Made by a program: the position numbers and the translations under genes. From Acidobacteriota bacterium (GTDB taxonomy: Bacteria; Acidobacteriota; Terriglobia; Terriglobales; Acidobacteriaceae), in assembly GCA_021791935.1 (NCBI GenBank), contig JAJYVR010000003.1, positions 1 through 35,976 on the forward strand: a DNA stretch of 35,976 nucleotides. Direction: 5' to 3'. The notes beneath the pieces are model-generated. The model was not told the origin of the DNA. It ran no database searches and saw only the letters and a program-made list of their open reading frames with translations. Shown here one piece after another: positions 11,782 to 35,429 of this stretch (positions are counted from its first letter, which is position 1; every line of letters begins with the position of its first letter).

Positions 11782-13137
11782 TCAGCAGGCAAGGTGTTCG
11801 CGGGTGATCTTCAGTCCATTCAGGTTGCCCAGCATGGCCACCGCAACCGACTCTGGCACGAACAACTGTTGCGCCATTCGCATCAGATCGCCGCTGGTCA
11901 CCTGGGCCACTTGTTCCAGAATTTCGGGCACGGCATAGAAGCGATGGAAGTACATTTCCTGCCGCGCCAGGTTCGACATCAGCGCGCCGGAGCTTTCCAG
12001 GCTCATCAGGATGTTGCCCTTCAACTGGTCTTTGGCGCGCTGCAATTCTTCTTCCGGCACCGGGACCTCTTTCAGACGCCGAAATTCATCGACTGTCAGG
12101 CGAATCACCTGCTCGGCATTCTGCGCCGATGTGCCGGCGTAGACGCACAACGAACCGGTGTCGCGGAAGGAGTTGACTTCGCTGAAAATGGAGTAGGCCA
12201 GGCCGCGCTCCTCGCGGACATTTTGGAACAGGCGAGAGCTCATGCCGCCGCCGAGAATTGTATTCAGCAGGGCGACGGTATAGCGTTGTTCATCGTTCAC
12301 CGGCGGAGCCGGGACGCCGAGACAAAGCTGCAATTGCTCCAGCGACTTCTTCTGTTTGGAGACAATGCGCGCATGCACTTTGGGCGTGGCGGCAAACGGG
12401 AGAGCCAAATTGCTGTCCGCTGAGGGCGCGGCCGGCAGATGCGCCAGCTTCTCCGCGACCAGCGTCACAAATGAATCGTGGTCCAGGTTCCCCGCGGCGG
12501 AGAAGATCATGTTCTGGCCCTGGAATCGCCCGCCGTAAAAATCGAACAACATGCTTTGATCGAAACGCTTGACTGTTTCCCGCGTGCCCAGGATCGGCTT
12601 GCCCAGCGGATGGTCTTTCCAGAAGCTCTGGGTAAAGATTTCATGCACCAGCATGTCCGGGTTATCTTCATCCATCTTGATTTCTTCCAGTACCACTTTG
12701 CATTCCCGTCCGATATCGTCGGGAGCAAAAATCGGTTGCGTCACCAGATCGGTGAGCACATCGAGCGCCTTGGGAACATGCTCGTCCAGCACCTTGATGT
12801 TGAAGCAGATGGTTTCCTTGCTGGTGAAGGCATCGAGGTTGCCGCCGATGGCATCGACCTCGCGCGCAATGTTCTGGGCAGAACGCGACTTGGTGCCCTT
12901 GAAGACCATGTGCTCGACAAAATGGGAGACGCCGTTGATCTCTGGCCGCTCATCTCGCGAGCCAGTCTTGACCCACACGCCCATGGAGACGGAACGGACG
13001 TGCTCCATGCGCTCGGTGAGGATGACAAGGCCGCTGGACAATTCCGTGCGGCGAATGTTGCGGCTTTGGGCGCTGTCGAGCGAGTTGCCAAGCGAACTGA
13101 AATGCGTAGTATCCTGCGGATTGTCGGTCGTAATCAT
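11782..13137 (-). CDS. M16 family zinc metallopeptidase (processing-peptidase-like)
   Basis: This 451-residue M16B-type peptidase is of the PqqL/YmxG/mitochondrial processing peptidase kind. The inverted zinc motif HFVEH (H72, E75, H76) is followed by the third ligand in VVLEEIKMDEDNP (E151 or E152). The first M16 domain spans about 30-180 and the second about 195-400, including the GGGMSSRLFQNVREERGLAYS substrate-side motif. All active residues are present, so it should be active in the cytoplasm or periplasm; no signal peptide is visible. It is the most upstream gene of the minus-strand pilus cluster and divergent from rlmN, and may share the transcript with the pilin gene. No clear ribosome site precedes the ATG at 13137. 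Confidence 0.9.
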   Translation of the reverse strand: MITTDNPQDTTHFSSLGNSLDSAQSRNIRRTELSSGLVILTERMEHVRSVSMGVWVKTGSRDERPEINGVSHFVEHMVFKGTKSRSAQNIAREVDAIGGNLDAFTSKETICFNIKVLDEHVPKALDVLTDLVTQPIFAPDDIGRECKVVLEEIKMDEDNPDMLVHEIFTQSFWKDHPLGKPILGTRETVKRFDQSMLFDFYGGRFQGQNMIFSAAGNLDHDSFVTLVAEKLAHLPAAPSADSNLALPFAATPKVHARIVSKQKKSLEQLQLCLGVPAPPVNDEQRYTVALLNTILGGGMSSRLFQNVREERGLAYSIFSEVNSFRDTGSLCVYAGTSAQNAEQVIRLTVDEFRRLKEVPVPEEELQRAKDQLKGNILMSLESSGALMSNLARQEMYFHRFYAVPEILEQVAQVTSGDLMRMAQQLFVPESVAVAMLGNLNGLKITREHLAC

Positions 13138-28445: not shown

Positions 28446-28682
28446 TTATCGTTTTTTTCGACCGCCTTCATCGAGGCCGCCGCCGACAAATTGGACAACT
28501 TCCAATTTGTCGCCGTTCGCAAGCACAACCCCGGCCCAACTGGCACGCGGAACAATGTCGCCGTTGCGTTCGATGGCAACGCGGTCGGGCTTCAGTTGAA
28601 GCAATTCGAGGAGGCGGTGGAGCTTGGGGTCCGAGTCCAACTCCGGAAATTCACGATCACGCCCATTGATTGTGAGATTCAT
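28446..28682 (-). CDS. thiS: ThiS/MoaD-like sulfur carrier protein with a C-terminal extension
   Basis: This 78-residue ubiquitin-like protein begins MNLTINGRDREFPEL and reaches the ThiS-type end GDKLEVVQFVGGG (about 57-69). ThiS carries sulfur as a thiocarboxylate on its terminal Gly-Gly for thiazole synthesis. Here nine more residues (LDEGGRKKR) follow the GGG, so the protein as encoded cannot be thiocarboxylated unless it is trimmed. The start at 28682 gives the normal ThiS N-terminus; the frame is open upstream. thiG and thiF are not adjacent. It may be a ThiS of another pathway, or need a protease to mature. Confidence 0.75.
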   Translation of the reverse strand: MNLTINGRDREFPELDSDPKLHRLLELLQLKPDRVAIERNGDIVPRASWAGVVLANGDKLEVVQFVGGGLDEGGRKKR

Positions 28683-28750: not shown

Positions 28751-29281
28751 TCACCTGGATGAGGACAAGGGTAGCACGGCCACGGACTTCGATTGCGAGG
28801 TCCGATCGTCTCTCCGATGAGATTCAAGGGCAAGTTTACGCTCGGAATTGCGATGAAACAGACGGTCCCAGAGGCGCAACCTCCTCGGCTCCCGGACCGA
28901 CGCAGACTGCAGAACCTTCGAGCGGGCTGCGACCAGGATCTGCATCGCCTGGGTGGAAGGCCCGCCAATGTTGATTGGTTCGTTGTCGTCGCCCTCATAC
29001 AGATAGCAATCGTTCAAATAGTCCACGGCGTGCCCGATCAGTTCCAGGGCCCGTCCCTGTTCCCGAGTGAGAATTCTGCGCAGGTTGTGGGACTTCGGGT
29101 TTCCTGCAAGCGCACTGGGAATATAGGCGACGGGCGCAAGATCGCGCACGCTGGATACGGACTGAAAAAGCTGCTCCTCGTCGCGGCCCGCTGCGGTTGC
29201 CGCTTCAGCCGTACGATCCGGCTCCGGGATGCAATTTCGGTTGGCCTTCGGGTTCGCTTCGAGGCTGGGGTGAGTCGTCAT
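28751..29281 (-). CDS. Hypothetical protein
   Basis: This is a 176-residue protein I do not recognise. The middle (about 68-130) has a natural protein pattern: NLRRILTREQGRALELIGHAV, then DYLNDCYLYEGDDNEPINIGGPSTQAMQILVAARSKVL, likely helical. Both ends are low complexity: an Ala/Glu-rich N-terminus and an Arg/Ser-rich basic C-terminus (FHRNSERKLALESHRRDDRT). No signal peptide or membrane helix is seen. The ATG at 29281 has GGGGAGAGAGG upstream. It is the same strand as thiS, 68 bases upstream, so a two-gene transcript is possible. Confidence 0.6.
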   Translation of the reverse strand: MTTHPSLEANPKANRNCIPEPDRTAEAATAAGRDEEQLFQSVSSVRDLAPVAYIPSALAGNPKSHNLRRILTREQGRALELIGHAVDYLNDCYLYEGDDNEPINIGGPSTQAMQILVAARSKVLQSASVREPRRLRLWDRLFHRNSERKLALESHRRDDRTSQSKSVAVLPLSSSR

Positions 29282-29570
29282 GGGGAAACCTCTCTCCCCT
29301 GATATTGACGTTTGCAACGGTGGCCAAGGAGGAAAAACCGTGGAACCGCGCGCTGCTTGGGTCAAATTGGAACAGCGCTCCGAAACGGAACTCTGCGTGG
29401 TTACCAAAGTTTTCTCGCAGCGCGACAGATGGATGCATGGAGTAATTTGCGCGCTACGCTATCGACAGGCACAGATGTCCTTACATCCCGGCCCTTCGCT
29501 TGCGCCGCAGACCAGCGGCATCCAGCATTCATTTCACGAAAGTCCACGATCCTCGCGAGCCTGCGGCGGC

Positions 29571-32670: not shown

Positions 32671-33984
32671 ATGCCCAGACTCGTTTCCCATCCCGATGAA
32701 GTGAAGATCGTCAGCCGCCGATTTGGTCAAGGCGCAACCAATATTGACCGCTATCTCGAACTGGACGGATACACAGCGGTGCGCCAGGCCATCGAGAAGG
32801 GGCCGGAGTGGATCGTCGCCGAAATGAAAGCTTCCAACCTGCGCGGCCGCGGCGGCGCGGGCTTTCCGACAGGCATGAAGTGGTCGTTCGTTCCCAAGCA
32901 GTCGGAGAAGCCAAAGTACGTTCTGGTAAATGGCGATGAAAGCGAGCCCGGCACCTGCAAGGACCACCTGATCTTTCTGCACGATCCCCATGCGGTGATT
33001 GAAGGCTGCATCATTGCCGGTCTTGCCGTGGGCGCGAAGACGGGCTTCATCTATCTGCGCGGCGAGTATCGCTACCTGCTTACCATCATGGAAAAGGCGA
33101 TTGCCGACGCCTATGCCAAGGGCTTTCTGGGCAAAGGGATCTTTGGCTCCAGCTTCGACTTTGAGATCATTTCGCAGACCGGCGCGGGCGCGTATGAAGT
33201 CGGCGAGGAGTCGGCGCTGATGGAGTCGCTGGAAGGCAAGCGCGGCATTCCGCGCATCCGGCCGCCCTTCCCTGCCGTGGTTGGGCTGTATGGCGGACCG
33301 ACGGTGATCAACAATGCGGAGACCATTGCATCCGTGTCGCACATCCTGAATATGGGCGGGGAAGCGTATGCCAAAATCGGATCGAACCGCAACGGCGGCA
33401 CGCGGTTGTTCTGCATCAGCGGCCATGCCGAGCGCCCCGGCGTGTACGAACTGCCGATGGGCTACAACCTGAAGAAGATGATCTATGAAGTGGCCGGAGG
33501 GATTCGCGGGGGGCGCGAGTTGAAGGCCGTCGTGCCTGGCGGCTCGTCGACGCCGGTCCTGTTGCCGAGCGAAATCGACATTGGCATGGATTTCGATCAG
33601 GTGGGCAAGGCGGGCAGCATGTTAGGCTCCGGCGGCGTGGTGGTGCTGGATGAGACCGTCTGCATGGTGGAGTTTGCGCTGCGCACCATTCAGTTCTACC
33701 AGCATGAAAGCTGCGGCTGGTGCATCCCTTGCCGCGAAGGCACGGACTGGCTAAAGAAGACGCTGACCCGTTTTCATGCCGGGGGCGGCGAGGCCAAAGA
33801 CATCGACAATATTCGGTATCTGGCGGAGAACATGCTGGGTCGGACCTTTTGTCCACTCGGCGATGCCGCGGCCATGCCGACCATTGCATTCATCAAAAAG
33901 TTTCGACAGGAATTTGAAGACCATTTAAACGGCAAACCCTGCCCGTATGCGAAGCGTCCTGTCGGCGAGTTGGTCGGTGTATGA
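32671..33984 (+). CDS. nuoF: NADH-quinone oxidoreductase subunit F
   Basis: NuoF binds NADH, FMN and the N3 [4Fe-4S] cluster and starts electron transfer. The 437-residue protein has the FMN/NADH loops NLRGRGGAGFPTGMKWSF (about 56-73) and NGDESEPGTCKD. The cluster cysteines are C348, C351 and C354 (ESCGWCIPC) and C394 (TFCPLGD). It starts 2 bases after nuoE. Its stop overlaps the start of the ATPase gene by 4 bases (ATGA), where nuoG would be expected to follow. Confidence 0.96.
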   Translation: MPRLVSHPDEVKIVSRRFGQGATNIDRYLELDGYTAVRQAIEKGPEWIVAEMKASNLRGRGGAGFPTGMKWSFVPKQSEKPKYVLVNGDESEPGTCKDHLIFLHDPHAVIEGCIIAGLAVGAKTGFIYLRGEYRYLLTIMEKAIADAYAKGFLGKGIFGSSFDFEIISQTGAGAYEVGEESALMESLEGKRGIPRIRPPFPAVVGLYGGPTVINNAETIASVSHILNMGGEAYAKIGSNRNGGTRLFCISGHAERPGVYELPMGYNLKKMIYEVAGGIRGGRELKAVVPGGSSTPVLLPSEIDIGMDFDQVGKAGSMLGSGGVVVLDETVCMVEFALRTIQFYQHESCGWCIPCREGTDWLKKTLTRFHAGGGEAKDIDNIRYLAENMLGRTFCPLGDAAAMPTIAFIKKFRQEFEDHLNGKPCPYAKRPVGELVGV

Positions 33985-35429
33985 AAATTCTAAACCTGAG
34001 ACATAAAGACGTTATGCCGGACATTGCCATTCGCAAGTTCGACCTCAACATTGAGAAGATATTGGAAGGCTGGGAGACTCGCCACGCCATCCGCGAGATA
34101 ATTGCAAACGCTTTCGACGAACAAGCGTTGACAGACACAGCGGAGGTAAAAATCACAAAGGACTCGAAGGGAGTCTGGCACGTCCGAGATTTTGGCCGTG
34201 GCTTGAGATATGAACATCTGACTCAGAACGAGAACAAAGAAAAGCTGCGCAATCCCGCCAAGGTGATCGGTAAGTTTGGGGTCGGGCTAAAGGACGCCTT
34301 AGCGACATTGCATCGTCGCGGGGTTGTTGTAGCGGTTAGTTCGAAGCACGGCGACATCACGTTAGAGGCGACGGCTAAGCACGGGTTCTCCGACATTACC
34401 ACTCTGCATGCTGTCATTTCTCCATCTACCGATGCCAAGCTGATCGGCACAGATTTTTCTCTCCAAAAGATTGAAGATGTCGATATTGCCGAAGCTAAGA
34501 GGTTTTTCCTCAAATTTTCTGGCGAAACAGTCCTTGATAACACAAGCTATGGGCAAATCTTGCGGAGGAACACAAACGGTAAGGCGCGTATTTATGTCAA
34601 AGGCTTGCTGATTGCTGAAGAAGAGGAGTTCGCATTTTCCTATAACATCACATCGCTCACGGCTGCTATGAATCGCGCGCTGAACAGAGAGAGAACGAAT
34701 GTAGGTCGGACGGCCTATGCGGATCGCGTTAAGGCGATGCTTTTGGACTCGGATTCTCGAGACGTTGCTTCAACTCTTGCGGATGATCTAAAGCGCATGG
34801 AACAGGGCACCAGCCGGGATGAGGTGAAGTGGATCGATGTTGCCATTCACGCATGCCAAATCCTCAACGCGTCTGAGAAAGTTGTCTTTGTAACGGCAGA
34901 ACAGAGGACTTCTGCTTCCTCTGCTGTCGATCACGCTTTGAATGACGGCTACAAGGTCGTCACAGTCCCTGAAAGCATAAAGGAGCGGCTGCGTGGCATA
35001 AAAGATATCCACGGCAATCCAGTCCGCAACCTGGACGTATACAAACAGGAGTTTGCCGAGAGTTTTGAATTCAAATTCGTTCCGCCAGGCAAATTGTCCG
35101 CTGCTGAACGCGATATCTTAGACATGCGTGAAAAGATCGCTAATCTCGTCGGCGGTCTGCCCCGCGAAGTCAAAGAGATCCTGGTCTCGGAAACAATGCG
35201 ACCAGATTTTGGTTCACACTACGATGCGGCAGGGTTGTGGGAACCTGGTAATCGGCGAATTATTATCAAGCGGTCAGAGCTTAGATCTCTTGAGGCGTTC
35301 GCTGGAACACTGCTCCATGAGATAACACACGCGCGCACGGGATATGACGATCTTACGCTGGATTTCGAGCACGGGCTTACGGAGGCCCTCGGTAAAACCT
35401 CCACACATGCGGTCAAGGTTTTGAAATGA
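33981..35429 (+). CDS. GHKL-type ATPase with a C-terminal HExxH metalloprotease-like motif
   Basis: This 482-residue protein is of unknown role. The N-terminal third is a Bergerat-fold (GHKL) ATPase. It has N-box E39IIANAFD46, G1 box D70FGRG74 and G2 box KFGVGLKDA (98-106), the signatures of gyrase/Hsp90/MutL/histidine-kinase ATPases, with no kinase or MutL domain after it. The middle (about 150-400) is unrecognised. Near the end H446EITH450 is a zinc-protease motif, followed by DFEHGLTEALG with a possible third ligand E463. The gene overlaps nuoF and hicB by ATGA. It is A+T-richer than both: 24 of 60 G+C at 34501-34560, against 42 of 60 at 33181-33240 (nuoF) and 42 of 60 at 35461-35520 (hicB). 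That suggests transfer into the operon. A second in-frame ATG lies at 34014 (MPDIAIRKF). Confidence 0.85.
   Translation: MKILNLRHKDVMPDIAIRKFDLNIEKILEGWETRHAIREIIANAFDEQALTDTAEVKITKDSKGVWHVRDFGRGLRYEHLTQNENKEKLRNPAKVIGKFGVGLKDALATLHRRGVVVAVSSKHGDITLEATAKHGFSDITTLHAVISPSTDAKLIGTDFSLQKIEDVDIAEAKRFFLKFSGETVLDNTSYGQILRRNTNGKARIYVKGLLIAEEEEFAFSYNITSLTAAMNRALNRERTNVGRTAYADRVKAMLLDSDSRDVASTLADDLKRMEQGTSRDEVKWIDVAIHACQILNASEKVVFVTAEQRTSASSAVDHALNDGYKVVTVPESIKERLRGIKDIHGNPVRNLDVYKQEFAESFEFKFVPPGKLSAAERDILDMREKIANLVGGLPREVKEILVSETMRPDFGSHYDAAGLWEPGNRRIIIKRSELRSLEAFAGTLLHEITHARTGYDDLTLDFEHGLTEALGKTSTHAVKVLK

Follow-up and report, generated by a model that had tools for sequence, protein, structure and literature searches.

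In the Acidobacteriaceae genome examined here, the sulfur carrier ThiS is encoded with nine residues after the triglycine of its core, and tails of one length or another follow the same triglycine in most ThiS genes of the family. A zinc peptidase encoded in nearly all genomes of the family probably has to cut these extra residues away first: the preferred reading, which comes from sequence comparison and is held at a probability of about 0.77, is that ThiS is made capped and that a JAMM peptidase would trim it before activation by an E1 enzyme. Hidden ThiS ends were almost confined to genomes that have a JAMM gene. If the reading is true, a deubiquitinase-like peptidase is required for making vitamin B1 in this family and in bacteria whose ThiS is fused to ThiG. 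For annotation it would mean that thiS genes of this family should not be trimmed back to GG.

The thiS gene and its encoded cap

The gene lies in a window of 35,976 nucleotides (the whole stretch of DNA analysed), and its parts are these:

28446..28682, minus strand: thiS, encoding a 78-residue sulfur carrier precursor, stop included (open reading frame; TIGR01683 and PF02597 above cut-off; AlphaFold beta-grasp core)
28476..28682, minus strand: residues 1-69, the conserved core of ThiS, with VGGG at its end (alignments A1 and A3; dN/dS)
28449..28475, minus strand: cap LDEGGRKKR, nine unconserved residues after the triglycine (C-termini of relatives; low pLDDT)

The reading frame opens with ATG at 28682 and closes with TAA at 28448-28446, and its product ends ...VVQFVGGG-LDEGGRKKR. 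The nine residues that the initial annotation saw after GGG are present, on the minus strand (the strand was left unstated there), and the encoded chain thus does not have the canonical end at Gly. A longer in-frame start exists (GTG at 28754); the alignment of relatives begins at the ATG. Against the NCBIfam equivalog TIGR01683 the protein scores 68.3 bits (cut-off 37.45), with residues 3-69 covering the whole profile, and against Pfam PF02597 it scores 54.6 bits (cut-off 22.5) over residues 4-69. In an AlphaFold model made from 33 ThiS sequences the beta-grasp core is confident (pLDDT reaches 90 or more at 64 of the 78 residues) and the tail weak (mean pLDDT 51 over residues 71-78). The solved structures nearest to this model all come from ThiS: 1zud_2 (Z 10.7, rmsd 2.7, 65 residues aligned), then 3cwi (Z 10.5, rmsd 2.9, 68 aligned) and 1tyg_B (Z 9.9, rmsd 2.2, 65 aligned).

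Core and tail evolve differently. The VGGG motif occupies residues 66-69, and its GGG is kept in all 64 ThiS genes of the family and genus that were read; in alignment A3 the coordinates chosen cut some rows short (L088 and L098, and L149, whose row is without GGG). Between the core and that of the nearest relative (G062) dN is 0.033 and dS 0.288, a ratio of about 0.11, and on these rates the core is under purifying selection while the tail changes freely: the two proteins are 93% identical, and the relative has LEL in place of LDEGGRKKR. A functional conserved tail was considered and ruled out, tails being unlike even between such orthologues.

Most simply, the gene encodes the housekeeping thiamine carrier, because a PF02597 search of the genome (92.6% complete) found no other stand-alone ThiS/MoaD-like protein, the product has the score of a ThiS, ThiG is also encoded (contig C141), and its orthologues are alike in most genera of the family sampled. 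On the same evidence the earlier suggestion of a specialised sulfur carrier is not supported; a specialised second ThiS is likewise unsupported, since PF02597 finds just this protein and a MoaD-MoaE fusion.

Two minor features of the gene can be recorded. A run of seven A stands directly before the stop, and the tail runs into it. Inside the code for DKLEVVQFV, two 11-base arms form a perfect inverted repeat around a loop of 5 bases (28485-28511, minus strand); it is complete in just 3 of 10 genus loci, the window's own included, and is therefore treated as probably incidental.

Tails across the family

C-termini were read from DNA in a sample of 60 family genomes and 10 genus genomes. In the family sample ThiS was read at 57 of 58 places (G024, at a contig edge, was left out), and two paralogues (L071 and L072, with ends AAGG and FAGG) were set aside before counting. 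The resulting 64 genes comprise 55 from the family sample, to which G052 contributes two, and 9 from congeners. Residues follow GGG in 57 of them; the outcome named beforehand as refuting, relatives that end exactly at GGG, holds for the other 7, so it mostly fails. Within the genus all ten ThiS proteins extend past GGG, one (L044) by a single extra Gly, and among ten further family genomes nine were tailed and one had an exact end. Two of the tailed genes stand in genomes assembled as one contig (L013, L014), and another lies on a contig of 1.8 Mb (L010). With 57 of 64 genes tailed, a lost stop or error limited to the source genome was ruled out.

The tails range from 1 to 48 residues, 33 of the 64 genes having only 1-3, and no shared sequence was seen among the 57 tailed genes. 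The stops still fall near GGG. The first codon after GGG is a stop in 11% of genes (7/64), and each of the next three codons is a stop in 23-28% of the genes remaining (33 stops in 131 codons at risk). Stop triplets make up 2.3% of the background, counted 60-360 bases downstream in three frames (456/19,668). Because stops stay near GGG, far above that background, long tails seem, on these counts, to be selected against and short ones tolerated. A preference for a short cap over a free GG is unproven: its test gives p = 0.023 with congeners and 0.21 without them.

Hidden ends and the JAMM peptidase

The initial annotation had proposed looking for JAMM/JAB and ThiF-like genes in the genome, and both kinds are there: one strong JAMM and two ThiF-type E1s, the latter being ThiF-domain proteins over cut-off. 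The single Prok-JAB match (PF14464, 87 bits) lies on another contig:

Contig C261, about 12071-12562, start uncertain: JAMM gene (PF14464), followed by an E1-rhodanese gene

Its metal motif is intact (HSHPDHPAEWSKTD, pattern HSHX7SXXD), and two upstream Glu residues are invariant in alignment A2, which holds 8 of the 9 JAMM domains extracted; among solved structures, 2kcq is nearest to it in sequence. A rhodanese-domain E1 adjoins JAMM in 14 of 18 loci read, including ten of ten genus loci from nine genomes; the neighbourhoods covered 1,500 bases on each side, and in the remaining four loci the E1 may lie beyond them. The second ThiF-type E1 (L074 1699-2937, minus strand) is nearest to a 'MoeB/ThiF family' model, below its cut-off. 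JAMM is not clustered with the carrier: thiS is on C34 and JAMM on C261, different contigs, and no thiS-JAMM operon was found in the source genome.

In the family, PF14464 matches in 57 of 60 genomes, in all 48 of the high-quality ones; 8 of 9 congeners match a JAMM profile. The wider comparison used a phylum sample of 159 genomes, 16 of them in this family. ThiS matched in 109, and 105 of 113 places were read (the other eight were five places of the family that had been read before, two fragments at contig ends and a paralogue). Among the 95 genes outside the family are weakly ThiS-like ones (E up to 3.8e-4, with ends SGG, CGG, QGG and AGG), two genes from one genome (G083) and a sequence containing masked letters (G109). 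By 'strong JAMM' is meant PF14464 at E <=1e-15, a threshold set after viewing the table; the weaker matches look RadC-like. On this measure, 18 ThiS genes outside the family are tailed or fused to ThiG, and strong JAMM accompanies 17 of them and 26 of 77 exact ends (51 without; Fisher p = 2e-6, per gene); where the genome lacks strong JAMM, 51 of 52 ThiS genes stop exactly at Gly. To allow for relatedness among the genomes, each of 38 families was also counted once, which leaves 11 hidden with and 1 without strong JAMM, and 13 exact with and 13 without (p = 0.027).

A set of named genomes gives the same picture: strong JAMM goes with 31 of 31 tailed or fused ThiS and with 11 of 19 exact ends (p = 1.4e-4). 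This set covers 50 of 80 loci (every one of the 19 exact ends and of the 16 ThiG fusions, with 15 of the 45 others) and overlaps the family set (for example L090, L116 and L139). Its fusions, in Novosphingobium and related bacteria, are at these loci:

L096, L102, L121, L122, L132, L138, L142, L145, L146, L148, L154-L157, L160, L161: ThiS-ThiG fusions

All 16 have strong JAMM, as against 0 of 7 unfused alphaproteobacterial loci; by record titles, from which the classes are taken, 15 of the 16 belong to alphaproteobacterial genera or families and one only to Pseudomonadota. In the phylum, ThiS-ThiG fusions occur in five genomes, all with strong JAMM. The ThiG part was confirmed by Pfam in 3 of the 21 fusions (L096 and L145 among them) and recognised by eye in the others. 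A different extension was observed in L108 and L112 (from 4001), where the ThiS frame stays open through almost 300 further residues, in which a DUF3667 match exceeds its cut-off; GG is buried in both, and both genomes have strong JAMM.

The association runs in one direction: hidden ends come with JAMM, but JAMM does not call for a hidden end. Tail and JAMM could also both be following lineage. The requirement for trimming to expose the diglycine, put forward in the initial annotation, finds support in this comparison, with one JAMM gene in the genome and tailed ThiS nearly always co-occurring with JAMM.

Several genomes do not fit. G203 (assembly 91% complete) has the tail EE and no strong JAMM, its best match being 7.8e-4, and no JAMM match was found in tailed G037 (53% complete) or G065 (85% complete); in G016 the match is partial, the contig ending there. 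In G042, which is 98% complete and 6% contaminated, ThiS stops exactly at GGG and MoaD is fused to MoaE, yet no JAMM was found; this would reflect either an assembly gap or missed JAMM, or another protease. Conversely, G025 and G046 (99% complete) have JAMM, ThiS exact at GGG and no MoaE found; because ThiS is uncapped and MoaE was not found there, JAMM would be kept in these two for some other reason.

A second hidden diglycine and a proposed shared maturation step

The genome's two PF02597 carriers are ThiS and the MoaD-MoaE fusion, and in neither is GG terminal. MoaE was found in 56 of the 60 family genomes and is fused behind MoaD in 54 of those 56 (one locus, at a contig end, was read in part), through linkers of varied length and unlike sequence that follow PPVSGG (PPVAGG in one). 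Both unfused MoaD proteins carry residues past the diglycine, VR at L325 (G034) and GGESQRQSQGSSRSSG at L337 (G052), in each case after PPVSGG; caps are therefore not confined to ThiS. The MoaD diglycine is thus hidden as made in 56 of 56 family genomes with MoaE.

Three other explanations of the tails have to be weighed. The tail could be removed by some other protease or a carboxypeptidase, in favour of which stand G042, with a MoaD-MoaE fusion and no JAMM found, and G203, with its two-residue tail and no strong JAMM; tails as short as one to three residues are common (33/64), and a paper on MoaX calls the protease there 'as yet unidentified' (PMC4326299). If any housekeeping protease were enough, however, tails would be expected without JAMM too, and outside the family that combination is seen in a single ThiS gene of 52, which makes this explanation unlikely.

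It is more improbable still that the tail is never removed and that ThiS works differently, or serves as a non-catalytic or protein-tagging Ubl. A capped carrier, as made, cannot be adenylated at Gly; pairs of JAB and E1 occur also in proposed bacterial Ubl-modifying systems (PMC1779556); and G025 and G046 keep JAMM with no hidden carrier found. Yet this ThiS is the sole stand-alone one found, in a genome with ThiG and two ThiF-type E1s, and GGG is kept in 64 of 64 genes while the residues after it vary, which points to GGG as the working end. The third possibility is a stop that was lost, a mistake in sequencing or assembly, or gene decay. The run of A7 at the end of the tail speaks for it; against it stand the core dN/dS of about 0.11 and the 57 of 64 genes that share this state, read from separate assemblies that include single-contig ones. 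Error is thereby refuted as a general explanation, the exact length of the source tail apart, and its probability is very small.

Trimming by JAMM thus remains the preferred account, and the steps it implies can be set out. ThiS would be made as the capped precursor of a housekeeping carrier, and the JAMM metallopeptidase on C261 would cut after the last Gly of VGGG, releasing LDEGGRKKR (cut, peptidase and site are all predicted). The freed Gly would be adenylated by an E1 of the ThiF/MoeB type and then thiocarboxylated, with the choice of E1 and the order of steps equally conjectural, and thiocarboxylated ThiS would supply the sulfur that ThiG needs to form thiamine's thiazole. This JAMM probably frees MoaD as well, whose GG is buried in its fusion with MoaE. 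Because a peptidase would do the trimming, the stop codon would not need to stand at GGG and could have drifted.

A broader and more tentative proposal, rated a little below even odds, is that one JAMM provides a shared and needed maturation step for thiamine (through capped ThiS) and molybdopterin (through fused or capped MoaD) across the family. Once the peptidase was there, the stops at the diglycine of both carriers would have lost their constraint and drifted in most genera, a ratchet tying vitamin synthesis to the peptidase. Here a free GG may even be less favoured than a short cap, since stops are rarer directly after GGG (7 of 64) than over the three codons that follow (33 of 131 at risk).

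Capped carriers are already known (QbsE and PtmS2 among them), and it is the family-wide capping of a housekeeping ThiS that is new. In the open-access literature searched, where 'ThiS' is indistinguishable from 'this', no report was found of a capped thiamine ThiS in Acidobacteriota or across a bacterial family. According to PMC6006322, the capped carriers QbsE (with QbsD), PtmS2 and PtmS3 need a protease such as QbsD. The likeness to QbsE/QbsD of thioquinolobactin and to PtmS2 and PtmS3/PtmS1 of thioplatensimycin lies in the residues past GG and in a JAMM held to expose it. Those systems, however, serve natural products (QbsE feeds one, and for another PtmS2 and PtmS3 have been assayed as donors), whereas the carrier here is the stand-alone ThiS of its genome; its cap is longer, unconserved and family-wide, and its JAMM lies apart from the carrier gene, unlike the clustered PtmS1 and PtmS2, although the chemistry does not depend on such clustering.

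Buried diglycines offer a second parallel. The JAMM of D. radiodurans (DRJAMM) cleaves a MoaD-MoaE fusion (PMC8832034), and MoaX of M. tuberculosis needs cleavage after GG (PMC4326299). In both, a buried GG is freed by a cut after Gly, and the source genome has a fusion of this kind; theirs is a two-subunit fusion serving molybdopterin synthesis, in contrast to the short non-domain tail that caps ThiS. ThiS-ThiG fusions, which PMC1779556 lists for many proteobacteria, share a ThiS whose GG is not terminal, with the difference that there ThiS is joined to its partner enzyme and here a short tail serves as the cap. The canonical ThiS proteins of E. coli and B. subtilis have the same fold and belong to the same family, but their solved PDB chains (1f0z, 1tyg_B) end at the last Gly, where the present protein has nine more residues. 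The HcyS-HcyD system of Wolinella succinogenes has a carrier with one residue after GG that is removed by a JAMM protein; it belongs to the methionine pathway, not to thiamine. The thiocarboxylate pathway is mentioned briefly in PMC6225789.

Elsewhere in the window, a further open reading frame lies close upstream of thiS:

28751..29407, minus strand: 218-residue open reading frame without a Pfam or NCBIfam match, ending 68 nt upstream of thiS

By tblastn a relative of its product is encoded near thiS in 12 of 20 other loci searched (L038 and L085 being the same place), the relatives coming from four genera, and the protein is perhaps a conserved partner. A 482-residue open reading frame on the plus strand (33981-35429), with weak GHKL-ATPase matches, lies among respiratory complex I-like genes (its neighbours were named by eye) and is perhaps inserted between them.
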